Program-made: the position numbers and the translations under genes | Assembly: GCA_021796315.1 (NCBI GenBank) | Contig: JAJYOH010000150.1 | Coordinates: 1 to 11,021, forward strand | Length of the DNA: 11,021 bases | Source: Chloroflexota bacterium | GTDB taxonomy: Bacteria; Chloroflexota; Anaerolineae; Anaerolineales; Villigracilaceae | Direction of reading: 5' to 3' | The notes under the pieces: generated by a model | The model's database searches: none | What the model saw: only the letters and a program-made list of their open reading frames with translations | What the model was told of the DNA's origin: nothing | Shown: in pieces, positions 649-10,532 of the stretch | How the letters are laid out: each line of letters opens with the position of its first letter | Numbering within the stretch: position 1 is the first letter of the stretch

Positions 649-660
649 TAACACGTGTTA
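649..660. promoter_or_regulatory. LacI-family operator, copy 1
   Basis: TAACACGTGTTA is a perfect 12-bp palindrome with the central CG typical of LacI/GalR-family operators. It lies just downstream of the -10 box, where bound repressor would block RNA polymerase, and 10 bases before the regulator's ATG. The identical site recurs at 1735-1746. The most likely use is autoregulation by the adjacent regulator. Confidence 0.8.
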
Positions 661-669
661 CTGAACAAT

Positions 670-1710
670 ATGCGTCCTACAAAACGTGCCACCAGTATTG
701 ATGTCGCTAAAATGGCTGGAGTCTCACGAACGACTGTCTCGTTTGTTTTGAACAGCGTTCCGGGAGTCAAGATCAGCGAACCAACGCGCCAGCGCGTTCA
801 GGACGCGGTGAAAACTCTCAACTATCACCCCGATGTCGCCGGACGAAGGCTGGCCAGTGGAAAATCGAACACGATCGGGCTTGTGATGAGGCAAAGCCCC
901 GAACAGGTTTTTGCAGATGCTTTTCTCATTCAGGTAGTGCTGGGGGTAGAACAGGCCGCGGCCCAGCAGGGTTTTCACGTTTTGATCAAACCTGTCGAAC
1001 CGGACGATCATCAGGGCTACGCCCGACTAACCCATGAAAATTACGTGGACGGGATTTTGCTTTCCGGCCCGCGCGAGGATGATTCTGAGATCATCCGCAT
1101 GCACCATCAAGGAGTGCCGGTTATGTTGATGGGCCAGCTTCCCAACAGCGAAATTCCATTCGTAGATGTCAACGCAATCGCGGGCGCTGCGAATGCGATT
1201 CGCCATTTGATTGCTCATGGTCATCACCAGATCGCGATAATCACGAATGCATCATTGACTTACACTTCTGCCAAACAACGTCTTGAGGGATATCATCAGG
1301 CGTTAAGAGAGGCCGGATTAGAAATCGACGATTCGTATTTGCAGGAGGGCAACTACACTCCTGCCAGCGGATTCAAGGCCATGACCGAGCTACTTAAAGT
1401 GACACCCCACCCCACAGCAGTTTTTGTTGCCAGTGACGTAGTTGCTATGGGTGCGATCCAAGCCATTAAGGGCGCTGCGCTTCGTGTCCCGGACGATGTG
1501 GCAGTGGTCGGTTTCGACGATGTCCCCCTAGCTGAATATTGCGATCCGCCATTGACCACTGTCCGTTTGCCCGCTTACGGGTTGGGTTGGGCGGCGGGTG
1601 ACCGTTTGGTCCGGATGATACAGGCAGTAAGCTTGGAACAACCTCAGCTTTTCCTTGAGTCAGAACTCGTCATACGGCAGTCAAGCGTTATAGGTTTGCC
1701 TCGTCAATGA
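670..1710 (+). CDS. LacI/GalR-family transcriptional regulator of the alpha-glucoside locus
   Basis: This is a repressor-type DNA-binding protein of 346 residues, normal for the family. Residues about 9-28 form the LacI helix-turn-helix ([20 protein letters not shown]). The hinge helix follows ([17 protein letters not shown], about 51-67), then a periplasmic-binding-protein-like effector domain with the conserved closing motif [20 protein letters not shown] chose the ATG at 670. A GTG at 655 is also in frame, but it lies inside the operator and would add five residues the family does not need. No clear Shine-Dalgarno precedes 670, and the short distance from the promoter would allow an almost leaderless mRNA. 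It sits directly ahead of the sugar-import genes, and identical palindromes lie before it and before the binding-protein gene. It therefore probably represses both and is released by an imported sugar. It resembles AglR/MalR-type regulators; the effector is unknown. Confidence 0.93.
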
Positions 1711-1834: not shown

Positions 1835-3187
1835 ATGAAAAAGTTTTACAGTGTTTTGGCCGCCGTGCTTTTGGCCTCCATGATTTTGACAGCCTGTGGC
1901 AGTCCCGCAACTCCGGCCGCGACCGAAGCGCCCGTTGTCACTGCGGCTCCCGTAACTCAGGCTCCTTCCACCGTCGCTCCCACCACAACTCCTGCATCCA
2001 ATATTAATTGCATGGGTGCTAAACCAGGTGATGAGATCAGCTTGCTCTACCAATGGTCAGGCGCTGAGGAAACCAGTCTTAATAAGGTGTTGCAGCCTCT
2101 CGTTGATAGTTGCGGCATCGTGCTAAAACCGGAGTCCACGCGCGATCAAGCGCTATTGGACACACGCGTCAAGGCCGGCACACCGCCTGACGTTGCGTTT
2201 TGGAATGTAGCACAACTTATACAGTACAAGGATCAGCTCAAGACAATGGATGAACTCGGCGCGCAGCGCGATAGCTATGCCGACTTCTTCGTCAATCCCG
2301 GCACTATTGATGGCAAGTGGCTGGGCCTGCCTGTTAAAGCCGATGTCAAAACGATCATCTGGTACAGCCCAGCCAATTTCAAAGCCCTGGGCTATAATGT
2401 GCCGACCACTTGGGATGAACTGAACACGCTCGTTGATAAGATGTCCGCTGACGGACATATACCCTGGAGTATGGGATTGGAATCTGGAGATGCCACTGGT
2501 TGGACCGGTTCCGACTTTATTCAGGATATCCTTCTAGTGCAACAAGGTCCTGCATACGTCATGGGCATCATAAATGGCAGCATCCCATATAATGACCCGG
2601 GCGTCAAGAAAGCTTATGAGACCTACGGCAAATGGGCCATGAATCCAAAATATGCTGTAGGCGGTGCGCAAGGTACGCTTTCAACCGCGTTCCTGGCTGC
2701 TATTTACAAACCATTCGCCGATCCGCCGGAAGCGATGATGGTCAAGCAATCCGGCTTCGCTGGTGGCGAGATTTCCAAGCAGTTCCCCACCCTTAAGCAA
2801 GGCACTGATTATGATTTCTTCATCGTCCCTGGTGCTCAAGGCTTGCAGGGCGGCGCGGACTGGATGATGGCCTTCAGCGATAAACCAGCGGTCAAAGCGC
2901 TGGTGGCTTATCTTTCCTCTCCAGAAGGAGGCGCCAATTGGGCCAAAGCTACCTTCGGCCTATCGCCCAACAAGGGCGCAGCCGGAAACTACACTGACCC
3001 GGCGTTGCAGAAACTCGGTCAGGCGCTCTCCACAACCAAGGGATTTACCCCTGATATCGGTGACACCATCCCCGGCGGTTTCGGCAGCGCTGAATGGAAG
3101 GCCATTGTAGATTACCTAAACGGCGGCAATCTGGATAAAGCTCTAAGCGATGCGGCGGCTGTACAAGCTGCAGCATTGAAGAAGTAA
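1835..3187 (+). CDS. aglE: Sugar ABC transporter substrate-binding lipoprotein (AglE-like)
   Basis: This is an extracellular solute-binding protein of 450 residues that captures a sugar and delivers it to the membrane permeases. It has a lipoprotein signal peptide with a lipobox LTAC ending at Cys21, then a flexible Pro/Thr/Ala linker (about 22-56), then a family 1 sugar-binding fold. Motifs in that fold include GTPPDVAFWN, LGLPVKADVKTIIWY and PTTWDELNTLVDKM. C59 and C94 could pair. The start has a good Shine-Dalgarno (AGGAGA, seven bases upstream). The two downstream permeases have AglF/AglG hallmarks, so I read it as the binding protein of an alpha-glucoside-type importer (trehalose, maltose, sucrose or similar); the exact sugar cannot be read from the sequence. 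Expression is probably controlled by the LacI-family repressor through the operator at 1735-1746. The family assignment is firm; the aglE symbol rests on context. Confidence 0.9.
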   Translation: MKKFYSVLAAVLLASMILTACGSPATPAATEAPVVTAAPVTQAPSTVAPTTTPASNINCMGAKPGDEISLLYQWSGAEETSLNKVLQPLVDSCGIVLKPESTRDQALLDTRVKAGTPPDVAFWNVAQLIQYKDQLKTMDELGAQRDSYADFFVNPGTIDGKWLGLPVKADVKTIIWYSPANFKALGYNVPTTWDELNTLVDKMSADGHIPWSMGLESGDATGWTGSDFIQDILLVQQGPAYVMGIINGSIPYNDPGVKKAYETYGKWAMNPKYAVGGAQGTLSTAFLAAIYKPFADPPEAMMVKQSGFAGGEISKQFPTLKQGTDYDFFIVPGAQGLQGGADWMMAFSDKPAVKALVAYLSSPEGGANWAKATFGLSPNKGAAGNYTDPALQKLGQALSTTKGFTPDIGDTIPGGFGSAEWKAIVDYLNGGNLDKALSDAAAVQAAALKK

Positions 3188-3201
3188 ATCGTCATTTAAG
3201 A

Positions 3202-3231
3202 TTGGGGACGCCTCGGTTGAGGCGTCCCCAA
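3202..3231 (+). other. Strong intercistronic hairpin between binding protein and permeases
   Basis: A perfect 13-bp stem (TTGGGGACGCCTC at 3202-3214 with GAGGCGTCCCCAA at 3219-3231) closes a four-base loop GGTT. No run of T follows, so it is not a standard intrinsic terminator. In ABC importer operons a hairpin at this place (compare the malE-malF gap) protects the 3' end of the binding-protein message and sets a high binding-protein to permease ratio. That role is an analogy; the hairpin itself is seen directly. Confidence 0.8.
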
Positions 3232-3250
3232 CCCCTTACAGGAGGAACTT

Positions 3251-4213
3251 ATGGCATCACAAAACATTCCCAAGATAATGAAGCATGGTAATCTGACACC
3301 CTGGCTCTATCTGTTACCTGCTTTGATAGTGATGTCCTTCTTCATTGTCTATCCAATGATTAACACTGTTGCCTTGAGCTTCAGTAATAAGGATGGCACT
3401 GCCTCTGCCGCGACAACTTGTACAGCCGGAGAATCCTGTTGGGGTGTTTTTGAGAACTACCACTATGTTTTGACCTCAGAATTTGACTTCAGCTCGCCCG
3501 GAGCTTTTTTGGACACTTTTTGGAAATCATCGTTTGGAAATAACATCAAATGGATTTTCCTGATGACTGCGGGAACAGTAAGTATTGGGTTGGCTTTTGC
3601 CGTACTTGCCGACCGGGTCAAATATGAGGCTCTGGCTAAGGCAATCATTTTCATGCCCATGGCTGTTTCCTTTGTGGGGGCCGGCATCGTCTGGAAATTT
3701 GTCTATGATTATGGCACACAGCAGGTTCAAATAGGCCTGCTTAATTCCATTATCACCGCTTTCGGAGGAAAACCTGTTGCCTGGCTGTCCACACCAGGCA
3801 TCAATACCTTGATGTTGATCATTGTGGGTATTTGGATTTGGACCGGCTTTTGCATGACGATCCTTTCCGCCGCGCTGAAATCCGTGCCTGATGAGATCCT
3901 CGAAGCTGCCCGCGTGGATGGTGCCAGCGAATGGACAGCGTTTTGGAGGATCATGGTTCCAATCATCATGCCCACGATTCTGGTAGTGATCACTACGATG
4001 GTCATAAATGTGTTGAAATTATTCGACATCGTTTACGTGATGACCGGCGGCAACTTTGGCACCAACGTGATCGCCAACCGCATGTACACGGAAATGTATA
4101 AAAACTTTAACGTAGGCCGAGGCACGGCGGTAGCCGTCATCCTTGTACTCTCCGTTATTCCCTTCGTTTACTACAACATCAAACGCTTTCTGGCACAGGA
4201 GGCAATCCGATGA
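3251..4213 (+). CDS. aglF: Sugar ABC transporter permease 1 (AglF-like, MalF type)
   Basis: This 320-residue inner-membrane subunit forms half of the translocation channel. A first hydrophobic segment at about 16-40 (LTPWLYLLPALIVMSFFIVY) is followed by an external loop with two cysteines, C57 and C63, and then a run of further membrane segments. The cytoplasmic EAA loop that docks the ATPase is clear at 218-241 (EAARVDGASEWTAFWRIMVP). The end (RFLAQEAIR) is typical of AglF-like proteins. It starts with a strong Shine-Dalgarno (GGAGG, five bases before the ATG) right after the intercistronic hairpin, and its stop overlaps the next permease's start. It belongs to the CUT1 class of carbohydrate uptake transporters. 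The partner ATPase is not encoded in the window. Confidence 0.92.
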   Translation: MASQNIPKIMKHGNLTPWLYLLPALIVMSFFIVYPMINTVALSFSNKDGTASAATTCTAGESCWGVFENYHYVLTSEFDFSSPGAFLDTFWKSSFGNNIKWIFLMTAGTVSIGLAFAVLADRVKYEALAKAIIFMPMAVSFVGAGIVWKFVYDYGTQQVQIGLLNSIITAFGGKPVAWLSTPGINTLMLIIVGIWIWTGFCMTILSAALKSVPDEILEAARVDGASEWTAFWRIMVPIIMPTILVVITTMVINVLKLFDIVYVMTGGNFGTNVIANRMYTEMYKNFNVGRGTAVAVILVLSVIPFVYYNIKRFLAQEAIR

Positions 4214-5397
4214 ACCGCGACAGGATCAACCGGATTCTTGGCAGAATCCCGACCCACCTCATTATCCTTATTACGATACTTATCTGGATTGTGCCGACAC
4301 TGGGTCTATTGATCACATCTATACGCCCGGTACAGGATGTCAACTCAACGGGTTGGTGGACAGTTTTCTCTCCATGGAGGAATATTAGCGCTTCTTATGC
4401 TCAATACTGTGCCTCCTGCCATGGTGCGGATGGAAAAACAATTCCACAGGCGGATCTATCCGATCCAAACTTGAATGCCAAGTATCCGCGTTCCTTGCAA
4501 CTGCTGGCAGTCTTGCGCAAGGACTTCAACGGTAAACCACACATGGACAACATCCCCCTGCCTACAATACAAGAGGCAGCAGACATAGCGGCTTATCTCA
4601 GAGACACCTCATCGGGCCAGGTCGCAGCGCGCTTCACAACCAGCAACTACGTAGATGCCTTGGTTGGCTATAGAGGCAGGAATACTTATGTTCAGGATTG
4701 CAGCGAGCACACACAATCGTTGGATCTCAAATGCAACGCCAGTGATTTGTTGAATCCGCGGGGCATGGGACGCGCTTTTCTCAATAGCCTGTTCATCACA
4801 ATACCGGCAACCATTCTGCCAATCTTATTTGCTGCATTTGCAGGTTACGCCTTTGCATGGCTGCATTTCAAAGGACGTTTTCTTTTGTTTGCCATACTCG
4901 TCGGCCTTCAGGTCGTTCCTCTCCAAATGACTCTCGTCCCGATCTCGCGGCTATATGCCCAAATGGGATTGAACGGCACGTTTTTGGGAGTCTGGCTGTT
5001 TCATACCGGCTTTGGTCTGCCGTACGCAATCTACTTGATGCGCAACTTCCTCGGTTCCCTGCCAAGCGACTTATTCGAAGCTGCTTATCTAGATGGTGCC
5101 TCTCACTGGACTGTGTTCACGCGCCTCGTTATTCCATTGGCGATGCCTGCCATCGCCTCGCTTGGTATTTTCCAATTCCTGTGGGTTTGGAACGACCTGC
5201 TTGTTGCCCTGGTCTTTCTGGGCGGCACCACCCCAGTCATGACCTACCAGATCAGCAACATGGTCACGTCGCTTGGCGCAGGCTGGCACCTATTGACCGC
5301 CGCGGCCTTTTTATCCATGTTGCTTCCGATGATCGTATTCTTCGGACTTCAGCGTTACTTTGTTCGCGGCATGATGGCCGGTGCAGTTAAAGGTTGA
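4210..5397 (+). CDS. aglG: Sugar ABC transporter permease 2 (AglG-like) with an inserted c-type cytochrome domain
   Basis: This 395-residue permease is longer than the roughly 280-300 usual for MalG-type subunits; AglG proteins are often longer. Its ATG overlaps the aglF stop (ATGA), implying translational coupling. TM1 is at about 17-38. The AglG-like STGWWTVF follows at 46-53. The GMGRAFLNS motif before the remaining membrane segments is at 185-193, the EAA loop at 290-313 (EAAYLDGASHW...), and the end is VRGMMAGAVKG. Between TM1 and TM2, residues about 59-140 read as a small cytochrome c. They include YAQYCASCHGADGK with C67-x-x-C70-H71 for covalent haem, KPHMDNIPLP with Met112 as candidate distal ligand, and the final helix EAADIAAYLRD. 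C164 and C175 lie after it. MalG topology places this loop outside the membrane, where haem is attached. The frame is intact across both junctions. The permease role is near certain; haem binding and any redox or docking role are inference. Confidence 0.9.
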   Translation: MNRDRINRILGRIPTHLIILITILIWIVPTLGLLITSIRPVQDVNSTGWWTVFSPWRNISASYAQYCASCHGADGKTIPQADLSDPNLNAKYPRSLQLLAVLRKDFNGKPHMDNIPLPTIQEAADIAAYLRDTSSGQVAARFTTSNYVDALVGYRGRNTYVQDCSEHTQSLDLKCNASDLLNPRGMGRAFLNSLFITIPATILPILFAAFAGYAFAWLHFKGRFLLFAILVGLQVVPLQMTLVPISRLYAQMGLNGTFLGVWLFHTGFGLPYAIYLMRNFLGSLPSDLFEAAYLDGASHWTVFTRLVIPLAMPAIASLGIFQFLWVWNDLLVALVFLGGTTPVMTYQISNMVTSLGAGWHLLTAAAFLSMLLPMIVFFGLQRYFVRGMMAGAVKG

Positions 5398-5409: not shown

Positions 5410-7168
5410 ATGGATTTCAGAACCCAACTTCTCGATCTGCTGAAAAACCAAATCAATATTACCCGCGTCCCGTTCAGTGCGCACGGCTCACGCCTGCTCG
5501 TTTATCAGGAGCCGGAAAAAAGCCGCCTGGTTGTAAAACTGGCCGAGCGCCTCGTCTGTCTTGATCCGGACCCTGAAGCTTATGTGCGTCGTCCACCCTT
5601 CATCCACAGCCTGGGATTTATTGATGAAGCGGGGGACTTCCTCGAATTCGAGACCGTCACATCCCCGGATGTCTTGTGTTTCCAAACCCGCCTCGGCGAA
5701 TTCAAGCTCGCGTTTCAGGATATCCATACGCTGGCAATTGGCTTGCCAGCCAACAGGAAGACCGGCATCAGGTTTTGTATTAACCCGGAAATGTGGTCCA
5801 GGATGGAGTGCGGCGGTGAAATAAAATCCGTTCGCAACTTTGCCTACCAGACCAATGGTCAGGTGCTCAGAAACCAGGTCGCGCCCGGGGAAAATGGATA
5901 TTCCATCGAATTTGTTGTGTGCGCAAACGACGATTGTACGATCACATTTCGCATCAGCAGTTCATTTGACCTGGCGCACCAGTCGCTTCCATTTTCACAG
6001 ATCAGCGCAAATGCAAAAGCCCTGTGGCAGGAGTGGTTCGATCAAGTTCCACCGGTTGTCGAGGCATATCGTCATACGTATGCATACGCCTGGTGGGTGA
6101 TGGGATGCAACCTGCTCAGCCCTCTAGGCAGCTTGGGCTTCGAGTGCGCCGCGCCATCAAAATCCACGTACATCGGAATTTGGCTTTGGGACAGCGCTTT
6201 CCACTCGATCGCGTACCGGCATATTAACCCTGGGCTGGCGCGTGACCAAATCCGCGCGATGCTCGCACACCAGCTCCCGAACGGGATGTTGCCGGACGCG
6301 ATTCACGATGAGGGCATTGTCACAGAGATTGATCATCCGTTTTTTTGCCGAGGTAACCAAACCGCCCATCCTCGCCTGGGCTGCCATGAAGATACACAAA
6401 ACCGCACCGGATATGCCTTTTCTCAGCGAGATTTACGCGTCCCTTGTTCGGTGGAACGCCTGGTGGTTCGAGTGCAACGATGATGACAGGGATGGGCTGG
6501 CTCAGTACAACCATCCCTATTCTTCTGGTCTCGATGACAGCCCACTCTGGGATTATGGGATGCCGGTTGAGTCGCCCGATTTGAACACGTATCTCTGCAT
6601 CCAGATGCAGTCTTTGGCGGAGATGGCCGAGGCCTTGGGAATGTTTGAAGATGGAAGCAAGTGGAGGTCCCGCGCGGAAGCGATTGTTCAGAGGATGATT
6701 GATGATCTCTGGGACGAAGTGTCCGGCCTGTTCCGCGCAACTCATGACGAAAATCCGATCCCGGTCATTACGCCCTTCAACCTGCTTCCGTTATGGACAG
6801 GTCATCTCCCTGAAAAAATTTGCGTCAGGTTGATCGCGCATCTGAAAAACCCGCGTGAGTTTTGGGGCGAACGCGTCATCCCAACGGTTGCCCGCAATGA
6901 CCCTGCCTATGATCCCGAAACCATGTGGCGTGGACCGATATGGGTAAACATCAATTATTTTTTCATCGAAGCTTTACGGCGGGTTGGCGATGATGCACTT
7001 GCGAATGAGTTGCGGGATAAAACGCTGAACTTGATCATGGATCAAGCGGGTATCTTCGAATACTACAACGCAGAGACTGGTGTTCCTCCGCTGAGAGCAG
7101 GCGGCATGTTCAGTTGGACCGCGGCCGTTTTCATTGACCTTGCGCTTGAAGCAAGTGAAAAAAACTAA
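5410..7168 (+). pseudogene. GH63/MGH1-like glycoside hydrolase, interrupted by a single-base frameshift
   Basis: The gene reads as one 585-residue enzyme if one T is dropped from the T7 run at 6340-6346. Codons 1-312 lie in the first frame (5410-6345) and codons 313-585 in the +1 frame (6347-7168), joining as DHPFF-AEVTKPPILAW. Without correction the first part ends at 6483 with a nonsense tail. The N-terminal half (about 1-200) looks like a beta-sandwich domain. The (alpha/alpha)6 barrel follows with WLWDSAFHSIAYRH (258-271), HPYSSGLDDSPLWD (368-381) and FEYYNAETG (548-556). In GH63 and related enzymes such as mannosylglycerate/glucosylglycerate hydrolase, the acid and base residues fall in motifs like the last two (D375 or D376, and E550); that is from memory. 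It would hydrolyse an alpha-glycoside in the cytosol, as no signal peptide is seen. It starts 12 bases after aglG with no clear Shine-Dalgarno. A sequencing indel is as likely as real inactivation. Confidence 0.8.
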
Positions 7169-7192
7169 AGGTTTCCAAAACCTTTAGTTTTT
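7160..7192 (+). terminator. Terminator-like hairpin between the hydrolase and treS
   Basis: A 15-bp perfect stem (7160-7174 with 7178-7192, core CTAAAGGTTT/AAACCTTTAG) closes a three-base CCA loop. It is flanked by an A-run on the left and a T-run (7188-7192) on the right, so it could act in both directions. The hydrolase stop codon TAA (7166-7168) lies inside the stem. treS begins only 18 bases later with no room for a promoter, so this is likely a partial terminator or attenuator that lowers treS transcription rather than the end of the operon. Confidence 0.7.
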
Positions 7193-7210
7193 CATTCCTG
7201 GTAAGAAATC

Positions 7211-8836
7211 ATGAATCAGACACCCTGGTATAAAGACGCAGTTTTCTATCAAATTTACGTCCGTGCATTTTATGACAGCAATGGCGATGGCCATGGGGAC
7301 CTGAACGGGATAACCCAAAAATTGGATTATCTGCAAACCCTTGGGGTGGATTGCATCTGGCTGATGCCGTTTTATCCCTCGCCATTGAAAGACGATGGCT
7401 ATGACATTGCTGATTTCTACAACATCGCAGAGATCTTCGGATCGGTGGATGATCTCAAAGCGCTAATTGAAGCCGCGCACGCACGCGATATCCGCATCGT
7501 CATGGACCTGGTCTTGAATCACACATCCGACGAGCACCCGTGGTTCAAGGCATCGCGTTCAGACCGTAATTCTCCCTACCGTGATTATTACGTCTGGAGC
7601 GATACAGACCAGAAATTCGCCGGTACACGCATCATCTTTGTTGATACCGAACCATCCAACTGGACATGGGATGAAAAGACGAAGCAGTATTATTGGCATC
7701 GTTTCTATGCCAGCCAGCCGGACTTGAACTACGATAATCCCAAAGTGCAGGGAGAGATGCTCAATGTAGAGCGCTTCTGGCTGGACTTGGGAATCGACGG
7801 TTTCCGTGCGGACGCGGTGCCGTATCTCTTTGAACGCGAGGAAACCAACTGTGAGAACCTGCCTGAGACCCACATCTATCTCAAAAAACTGCGTGCCTTC
7901 ATGGATAAAAATTATCCCGGCCGTATATTGCTCTGCGAAGCCAACCAATGGCCTGAAGATGTCCGTTCTTATTTCGGCGATGGTGATGAATTCCACATGG
8001 GCTTCCACTTTCCCATTATGCCGCGCATTTATATGGGGCTCAAAAAAGGCGACGTCACTGACCTCCTTGAAATCATAAATCGCACGCCGGCCATTCCCGA
8101 AAATTGCCAATGGTGCACCTTCCTCCGCAACCACGACGAACTGACTCTCGAAATGGTCACGCCGGAAGAACGTCAGTGGATGTGGGAACAATATGCGCCC
8201 GAACCGCGCATGCGACTCAATCTCGGCATCCGTCGTCGTCTCGCGCCTTTGCTCGATAATGATCGCCGCAAGATCGAGCTGGCAAATTCTCTGCTCTTCA
8301 CATTGCCCGGCTCGCCTGTCATTTACTACGGCGATGAAATTGGCATGGGCGATAACATTTGGCTCGATGATCGCAACGGCGTACGCACGCCGATGCAGTG
8401 GGACGATTCACCGAATGGCGGCTTCACCAGCGCCAAACCTTTTGCGCCATTGCTCAAAGGTCAATATGGTCCACAGCATGTCAACGTTGCCGCGCAAATG
8501 ACTGACCCTGATTCTCTTTTGCGAGCCATGCGGCGAATGATCGCTGCGCGCAAACAATATCACGTTTTTGGCTGGGGTAGTTTCGAGTGGATCGATGCAG
8601 GCACAAATTCAATCGCGGCTTACACGCGCAAATATAAAAACGAAACCATGCTCATTCTCAACAACCTCAGCGATCAAAAACAAACTGTCCATTTACCTTT
8701 CAGCGAGGCCACCAACATTCTTTCCAACGAAACTGCTCCGCTCGAATCGCTGACACTTCAACCATTTCAATATCTCTGGCTTCTGGTGACTACTCCCACG
8801 TCTGAAGGCGGATTTTTGAAATTAAACAAATCGTAG
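7211..8836 (+). CDS. treS: Trehalose synthase / maltose alpha-D-glucosyltransferase (GH13)
   Basis: This enzyme interconverts maltose and trehalose by intramolecular transglucosylation in the cytosol. The 541-residue protein matches TreS (GH13_16) from end to end. It opens with [20 protein letters not shown], followed by [14 protein letters not shown] and [20 protein letters not shown]. The nucleophile Asp201 is in [14 protein letters not shown], the acid/base Glu243 in [11 protein letters not shown], and Asp309 in [27 protein letters not shown] and [15 protein letters not shown] are TreS signatures. The C-terminal beta domain ends near residue 530; no maltokinase domain is fused. The start at 7211 fits the family N-terminus, though the Shine-Dalgarno is weak (GGTAAG). 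It is the last gene of the sugar operon, behind the hairpin at 7160-7192. The context suggests the importer brings in trehalose or maltose, or that TreS draws on it for trehalose. A plain alpha-glucosidase is less likely given the signatures. Confidence 0.92.
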
Positions 8837-9353: not shown

Positions 9354-9749
9354 CTATGGATGAACCACTCGCAACCCCCAATGCTTTTCATATCCATCAA
9401 AGTCACTGTCATTATGCAATAAATCGTGCTTGTTTTCAATGCAATATGTGGCAATGAGACTATCTATCGTCTTGCGGACGGTGACTCCCTTGCGTCTTAA
9501 CATGCGATAATTACGCGCGCTTTGCAACGCTAGTTCGGGGGTAACTATCTCTACCTGAATATATTTCCCGAATGCGCGGCGGGCTTTTTCAAAATCGGCA
9601 TCGTTTCGAAATCCTTGCAGGACTTCCGCCAAAATTAAGTCGCCAATCAGAATTGGCGTTTTGTCCGCGATCTGGTGAAGATAATCAGTCTGCAAATTAT
9701 CGACACCATTGAAGTAGTCAATCCAAACTGTAGAATCAACAACAAGCAT
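9354..9749 (-). CDS. vapC: VapC-family PIN-domain ribonuclease toxin
   Basis: The toxin of a type II toxin-antitoxin pair, expected to cleave RNA (often tRNA or rRNA in this family) when the antitoxin is lost. The 131-residue length is typical. The PIN active-site acids are all visible: D5 in MLVVDSTVWIDYF, E42 in LAEVLQGF, D96 in RKTIDSLIATYC and D114 in LLHNDSDFD. Its ATG lies two bases after the vapB stop, so the two genes are translated from one mRNA; only a weak Shine-Dalgarno (GGGAA) lies in the vapB end. The complete set of catalytic residues argues for an active toxin. The RNA target is not known. Confidence 0.93.
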   Translation of the reverse strand: MLVVDSTVWIDYFNGVDNLQTDYLHQIADKTPILIGDLILAEVLQGFRNDADFEKARRAFGKYIQVEIVTPELALQSARNYRMLRRKGVTVRKTIDSLIATYCIENKHDLLHNDSDFDGYEKHWGLRVVHP

Positions 9750-10130: not shown

Positions 10131-10532
10131 TTAACCAAGACAGGAGTGGTAAATTCTGGATTTGATACTGAGTCGCTTTACCGTTCCGTTTAATGCTGTA
10201 CGGATCTCATCCAGTGTTGGATATGCACCTATTTTAATAACCTTGCCGCGCACAACGATGATAGGCAGGGATGCCATTTCTTTTTCGCGTACCAGTTTCA
10301 TTACCTGCGCGTTCCCTAGAAAAGCGCTGGGATGACTGGTCATCTGGTAACGCTCCACGCGCAGGTTTTCGCGCTGGAGGGGCTGGATCATTTCATTTAT
10401 ATCCAGCAGAGTCTGGTCGAGAGTTGGCCCACATAATTCCGTAGGACAACACATCGGCGGGTCGAGAAATCCCACGTCAGCTGGGACAATTGATGTAGGC
10501 AGGGTATTCAACAGGGGGATGACATTGCTCAT
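10131..10532 (-). CDS. arsD: ArsD-family arsenic metallochaperone / trans-acting regulator
   Basis: ArsD binds As(III)/Sb(III) and passes it to the ArsA ATPase; it also acts as a weak repressor of ars operons. The 133-residue protein carries the family core FLDPPMCCPTELCGPTLD with the three conserved cysteines C28, C29 and C34. The thioredoxin-fold motifs VERYQMTSHPSAFL, ASLPIIVVRGKV and GAYPTLDEIRTAL follow. About 20 extra residues precede the core; the ATG at 10530-10532 has a GGAGA ten bases upstream. The last 17 residues after ALNG look unrelated to the family and end next to a dispersed repeat, so the natural C-terminus may have been replaced. The vicinal cysteine pairs found at the end of enterobacterial ArsD are absent. 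It lies downstream of arsR with a 73-base gap, probably in one operon. No ArsA or ArsB gene follows in the window. Confidence 0.88.
   Translation of the reverse strand: MSNVIPLLNTLPTSIVPADVGFLDPPMCCPTELCGPTLDQTLLDINEMIQPLQRENLRVERYQMTSHPSAFLGNAQVMKLVREKEMASLPIIVVRGKVIKIGAYPTLDEIRTALNGTVKRLSIKSRIYHSCLG

Follow-up and report, generated by a model that had tools for sequence, protein, structure and literature searches.

Can a sugar permease carry a haem of its own, and what would a haem do in an importer? The question is raised by the window (the whole stretch of DNA analysed here, 11,021 nucleotides from a Chloroflexota bacterium), in which a sequence-only reading had seen a small cytochrome c lying between the first two transmembrane helices of a permease. 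From our analysis, ORF 4210-5397 is a MalG/AglG-type permease carrying a class I cytochrome c domain, and it runs as a single open frame without a stop, as that reading had held. The features on which the following rests are these:

655..1710, + strand: LacI-family regulator (PF00356, PF13377; gene order)
1835..3187, + strand: sugar-binding protein (PF13416)
3251..4213, + strand: partner permease of MalF/AglF type (PF00528, 4.5e-20)
4210..5397, + strand: MalG/AglG-type ABC permease with inserted haem domain (ORF of 395 aa; PF00528, 5.9e-16)
4252..4320, + strand: TM1 helix, residues 15-37 (AlphaFold model)
4375..4608, + strand: class I cytochrome c domain, residues 56-133, between TM1 and TM2 (PF13442/PF00034, model, PDB matches)
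4408..4422, + strand: haem-attachment motif CASCH, C67-C70-H71, with H71 as proximal ligand (sequence; kept in relatives)
4540..4542, + strand: His111, probable distal haem ligand (conservation)
4543..4545, + strand: Met112, the earlier ligand candidate, variable in relatives (conservation)
4699..4734, + strand: cysteine pair C164/C175, in the same outer loop as the haem domain (conservation)
4765..4857, + strand: TM2 helix, residues 186-216 (AlphaFold model)
5410..7168, + strand: GH63/MGH1-like glycosidase in two frames, 5410-6483 and 6242-7168 (ORFs, profile matches)
7211..8836, + strand: TreS-type maltose alpha-D-glucosyltransferase, GH13 (TIGR02456, 8.7e-248, over cut-off)

The permease part of the protein was recognised by PF00528 (BPD_transp_1) at residues 208-388 (59.2 bits against a cut-off of 26.4), and the NCBIfam matches were of the GlcU/UgpE/MalG type, each under its own cut-off (20 models listed). 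In the whole permease, PF13442 (Cytochrome_CBB3) matched residues 56-130 at 5.9e-6 with 27 bits, which equals the curated cut-off of 27, and PF00034 (Cytochrom_C) matched residues 61-133 at 1.1e-4 with 23.9 bits against a cut-off of 21.3. The scores rose when the 93-aa domain piece was searched alone, to 4.4e-7 and 30.6 bits for PF13442 (3.6 above the cut-off) and to 2.4e-6 and 29.2 bits for PF00034 (cut-off 21.3). The AlphaFold model places the permease helices at residues 15-37, 186-216, 223-251 (in two pieces), 258-282, 312-336 and 359-394, and the modelled haem domain has the cytochrome c fold and matches cytochromes c of the PDB. The identification of a cytochrome c in the TM1-TM2 loop is thus borne out by both profile and modelled structure, and the CASCH motif, the C-terminal helix of the domain (EAADIAAYLRD) and their coordinates were also read correctly from the sequence. 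The haem is predicted to be attached on the outer face of the membrane, in accordance with the MalG-type topology, which we take to be established and which would place the TM1-TM2 loop outside.

We then compared the domain across relatives in protein sets (P) and loci from species genomes (L), which share organisms and hence are not independent. CxxCH is kept in all 149 near proteins among the matches listed (P0001-P0149, drawn from the best 120 of 7999 and the best 120 of 810 matches) and in 113 of 117 proteins of a divergent subfamily, found by a class-wide genome search and a third protein search. The other four begin past the motif, so that no homologue with the whole insert and without CxxCH was seen among these 266 proteins. 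The haem domain is present in 53 of 80 loci, the remainder being 18 haem-less Chloroflexota permeases and 9 outgroups or fragments. The presence of CxxCH in every listed near protein and of the domain in these 53 loci indicates that the motif is not a product of chance. Within the class, the haem permease occurs in 19 of 199 genomes with one copy each (E 1e-10 or better); strong copies were likewise single in 16 of 16 genomes, one of which has an extra weak match. Most other positions of the haem domain are variable, with CxxCH and His111 nearly invariant and kept in members whose domain shares as little as 28% identity with that of the window, and in the divergent subfamily. Alignment A2 had 49 domains (the window and 48 of 52 loci) and A3 had 76 sequences. 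PF13442 recognised, at E 0.001, the domains of 43 out of 49 relatives. Where the match lists give source names, the relatives are called ABC or alpha-glucoside permeases. Three haem permeases (P0088, P0096 and P0104) come from metagenome-assembled genomes labelled Bacteroidota and Syntrophothermus, labels that are likely binning errors, or else reflect transfer out of Chloroflexota. One of the four proteins that begin past CxxCH (P0265, 302 aa), on a 14-kb contig, has its Met start within the haem domain and could be a broken or mis-started gene.

The distances around the haem motif are near-constant. In a set of 172 sequences (120 proteins and 52 loci, with L068 left out), 15-17 residues lie between W50 and C67 in every sequence and 39 residues lie between H71 and position 111 in 165, and haem-bearing sequences have 92-98 residues between W50 and N146. 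Such near-constant linkers suggest that the domain is held fixed beside TM1 and TM2 and not on a flexible tether. The omitted locus, L068, has in its G ORF (5974-7566) a pair of cytochrome c domains in tandem, one with CADCH and one with CAECH.

Which residue would complete the haem coordination was the one point on which the sequence-only reading had to be revised, as it had proposed Met112. Counting the distal position 40 or 41 residues after the His of CxxCH, we found His at position 111 in 149 of 149 listed near proteins, 111 of 113 divergent proteins and 52 of 53 loci, the exceptions being P0165 with Met, P0224 with Gln and locus L037 without His at the aligned position. Met112, on the other hand, is found in 138 of 149 listed near proteins, 32 of 53 loci and only 4 of 111 divergent proteins, in which Val, Leu, Ile or Thr takes its place. 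The expectation that the insertion would be conserved with its motif and Met112 intact therefore stands for CxxCH and fails for Met112, which we reject as the distal ligand because it is variable whereas His111 is conserved. The occurrence of Met exactly at position 111 in P0165 fits what is expected of a ligand position. Divergent-subfamily loci (L106-L112) have Val or Leu for Met112, some with a longer segment after the distal His. Judged by conservation, His111 is most likely the distal ligand, and the haem is probably bis-His ligated, which argues for a low potential. Among the structure matches is PDB 4h0k, an M58H mutant of cytochrome c6 with His engineered at the ligand site; from its aligned range (model 9-91 to chain 4-86), His111 would fall on the mutated ligand, residue 58, provided that the gaps cancel out. 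Searching the PDB with a profile built from the domain's C-terminal half gave no useful alignment, and so the equivalence of His111 to the axial Met is drawn from conservation.

To trace gain and loss, a quick tree of the permease was built with the insert columns removed, SH-aLRT support only and rooting on Leucobacter; three fragments (L073, L079 and L080) and a broken ORF (L069) were left out, and long-branch warnings apply to L072 (with the outgroup), L068, L041, L044, L053 and L063. Haem-less Anaerolineae groups (L047/L048, L050, a group of 13, and L067) are nested in haem-bearing ones, which is indicative that the domain was lost several times. The tree needs five changes of haem state, although its starred branches force only two, and the natural reading of this topology would be one gain and about four losses. 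In 17 haem-less Chloroflexota proteins, 16-32 residues lie between W50 and N146, as against 92-98 in haem-bearing ones, indicating that the domain is missing as a whole and has not decayed.

The gene sits in a recurring sugar operon. A sugar-binding protein is encoded at most three ORFs upstream of the haem permease in 47 of 52 loci (haem-less, 16 of 18), the partner permease directly upstream in 43 of 52 (haem-less, 17 of 18), and the full order LacI, binding protein, F and G permeases is found in 26 of 52 (haem-less, 12 of 18). A glycosidase or TreS-type gene follows within two ORFs downstream in 39 of 52 haem-bearing and 12 of 18 haem-less loci, all these counts including some loci truncated by contig ends. 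With TreS-type and MGH1/GH63-like neighbours, the imported sugar is probably an alpha-glucoside, for example trehalose or maltose. The glycosidase frames overlap in the window and correspond in relatives (e.g., L001) to one ORF of 585 aa, so that the split is a sequencing error or a recent frameshift. No ATPase partner (MalK/MsmK) was found among the nine window ORFs scanned; importers of the MalG/AglG type usually share an ATPase encoded elsewhere in the genome. CxxCH is absent from all 264 unlabelled ORFs that neighbour the permease in the haem loci; the widest recurring family, which reads like a sugar/nucleoside-type ABC ATPase, is found in 10 of 53 loci. The DNA context therefore points to no redox partner. 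Downstream of the operon in the window, we noticed a VapC-type toxin of a toxin-antitoxin pair (9354-9749, - strand) and an ArsD-like metallochaperone (10131-10532, - strand).

The binding protein and both permeases (window 1835-4734) have extracytoplasmic cysteine pairs that are conserved across most members of Chloroflexota, possibly marking a disulfide-stabilised importer family. The pair C164/C175 is kept in 120 of 120 listed proteins and 53 of 53 haem-bearing loci, and also in haem-less Chloroflexota members. These cysteine pairs are present with and without haem, and the outgroup permeases examined lack them; we thus rejected a part for them in any haem mechanism.

Does the domain follow other cytochromes in the genome? 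We compared 50 genomes of our own choice, 32 of them haem-bearing (from the 53 loci) and 18 holding all the haem-less Chloroflexota permeases, with L069, whose genome has no PF13442 match, counted as haem-less. PF13442 domains were found in 32 of 32 haem-bearing and 0 of 18 haem-less genomes. When one match in each haem-bearing genome was set aside as being the permease, other PF13442 cytochromes were found in 31 of 32 against 0 of 18 (Fisher 1.1e-12, kinship ignored). The exception is the genome of L021 (a 2.0-Mb assembly), which keeps the domain and has no other PF13442 and no other PF00034 match. PF00034, searched in 24 of the 50 genomes, matched in 5 of 6 haem-bearing genomes, some of the matches being the permease itself, and in 1 of 18 haem-less ones. 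Genes of cytochrome c maturation, whose absence from the host would have told against the sequence-only reading, occur in the relatives: PF01578 assembly genes were found in 31 of 32 haem-bearing and 11 of 18 haem-less genomes, most of them, judging by ORF length, probably CcmF/CcmC of System I. ResB (PF05140) matched in 5 of 50 genomes and is uninformative by itself; in the haem-less G013 and G016 it lies on the same contig as a PF01578 match, as in System II. Missing assembly genes can be discarded as the sole cause of the haem-less state, since 11 of the 18 haem-less genomes keep PF01578. That these 11 have assembly genes and no PF13442 is indicative that the domain depends on a network of c-type cytochromes, which appears to go beyond the mere ability to attach haem.

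These genomes are related, and independent pairs number two on the starred branches and four on the best tree, so that the PF13442 link cannot reach significance; it agrees in 1.5 of 2 pairs and is never opposite (p 0.5), and PF01578 agrees in 1.3 of 2. COX1 (heme-copper oxidase) was over cut-off in 24 of 32 haem-bearing and 2 of 18 haem-less genomes (Fisher 1.8e-5 on the raw table), leaving 8 haem-bearing genomes without it. In spite of this strong raw table, COX1 fails as a correlate in independent pairs, in which it goes the same way in 0.8 and the other way in 1.0 of 2.

We propose a model in which the permease of an alpha-glucoside/trehalose-type ABC importer would bear one covalent haem c in its first extracytoplasmic loop, ligated by His71 and most likely His111 at a low potential, with short near-constant linkers tying the haem domain to TM1 and TM2. 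The domain is predicted to exchange electrons with the class I cytochromes c of the cell, and its redox state would act on the permease, or on how the binding protein docks to it, whereby import would follow the state of the respiratory chain. The constant linkers, the near-invariant haem residues and the distribution lead us to favour such redox control of import, and the fact that relatives lack the domain where the genome has no such cytochromes suggests a tie between sugar uptake and the condition of the respiratory chain. As a whole, the proposal that a redox-responsive gate or sensor couples alpha-glucoside import to the cytochrome c pool is a tentative one, to which we give somewhat less than an even chance; L021, the small number of independent pairs, the outcome for COX1, the lack of His in L037, the Gln of P0224 and the lack of a recurring redox neighbour gene count against it. 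A bolder form, a widespread Anaerolineae importer family with a covalent bis-His haem in its permease acting as a redox valve, is possible and rather more doubtful. If true, sugar would enter only when the c-type respiratory pool accepts electrons, which would make it the first case of an ABC importer with its own haem as the gate.

Other functions must be weighed against such gating. The domain may be an electron-transfer module linking a periplasmic donor (a sugar dehydrogenase or another) to the respiratory chain, with the permease as a membrane anchor that would co-localise uptake with oxidation. Although the class I fold and the co-distribution with class I cytochromes c are what such a module would show, its short linkers are ill-suited to a mobile carrier and its neighbourhood offers no CxxCH-bearing ORF and no non-sugar family that reaches beyond 10 of the 53 loci, and we consider it unlikely. 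Equally improbable to us is a structural or docking module, i.e., a platform for the binding protein or a tether to a respiratory complex, in which the redox change is unused. The outer-loop location, the near-constant linkers and the precedent of MalF-P2 as an inserted docking domain suit it; nevertheless, CxxCH and His111 are almost invariant while most positions of the domain vary, and haem-less members, which lack it, still have a binding protein and a partner permease that are related. A haem-based sensor of O2, NO or CO that switches import recalls the haem c sensor domains of chemoreceptors and could draw on the raw excess of COX1 in haem-bearing genomes, but that link does not survive in independent pairs and a conserved sixth ligand, His111, would block a free site unless it dissociates, making this quite improbable. 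We see very little room for a functionless passenger, since the haem motif and His111 are retained in distant members and in the divergent subfamily, although the domain can be missing while the rest of the protein remains and P0265 may be a broken copy. An assembly or annotation artefact, i.e., a chimera of two genes, or a chance motif is refuted by the recurrence of the same architecture in 53 of 80 separate-species loci and by CxxCH in all 149 listed near proteins, and its probability is negligible.

A redox-controlled importer of this kind is best judged beside known systems. Control of known ABC importers operates through cytoplasmic domains and substrate trapping; a haem domain exposed outside would add a new mode of control that couples the uptake of carbon directly to respiration, and the domain is conserved in bacteria known mostly from metagenome-assembled genomes. 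As related haem-less permeases are natural controls, the idea is testable now. Among the titles and abstract openings that our searches of mostly open-access journal papers listed, none reports an ABC importer with a haem.

MalG/AglG/GlcU-type CUT1 permeases have the same PF00528 domain, with the partner permease and binding protein in one operon, and the window permease differs by a class I cytochrome c domain, some 80 residues long, that is added between TM1 and TM2. The P2 loop of MalF, in the maltose importer, is likewise a folded domain set into a sugar permease at a periplasmic loop, and has no haem; the window domain lies in the other permease and in another loop, and has a haem motif. 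With class I cytochromes c (cytochrome c6 and the CcoP-type cbb3 domains) it has CxxCH, profile and fold in common, but a conserved distal His stands for the usual Met and the domain is built into a transporter. The Geobacter chemoreceptors GSU0935 and GSU0582 have haem-c sensor domains of PAS-type fold that signal to kinases; they resemble the permease in having a covalent haem, predicted in the permease, outside the membrane on a transmembrane output, and the window permease differs in its class I cytochrome fold and in being a transporter. A study of Chloroflexi (PMC8756737) describes NirS with extra cytochrome c domains in Anaerolineales, a cytochrome c fusion like that of the window permease, made to an enzyme of denitrification and not to a transporter. 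In essence, the permease and the cytochrome are each of a known kind, and it is their combination that appears new.
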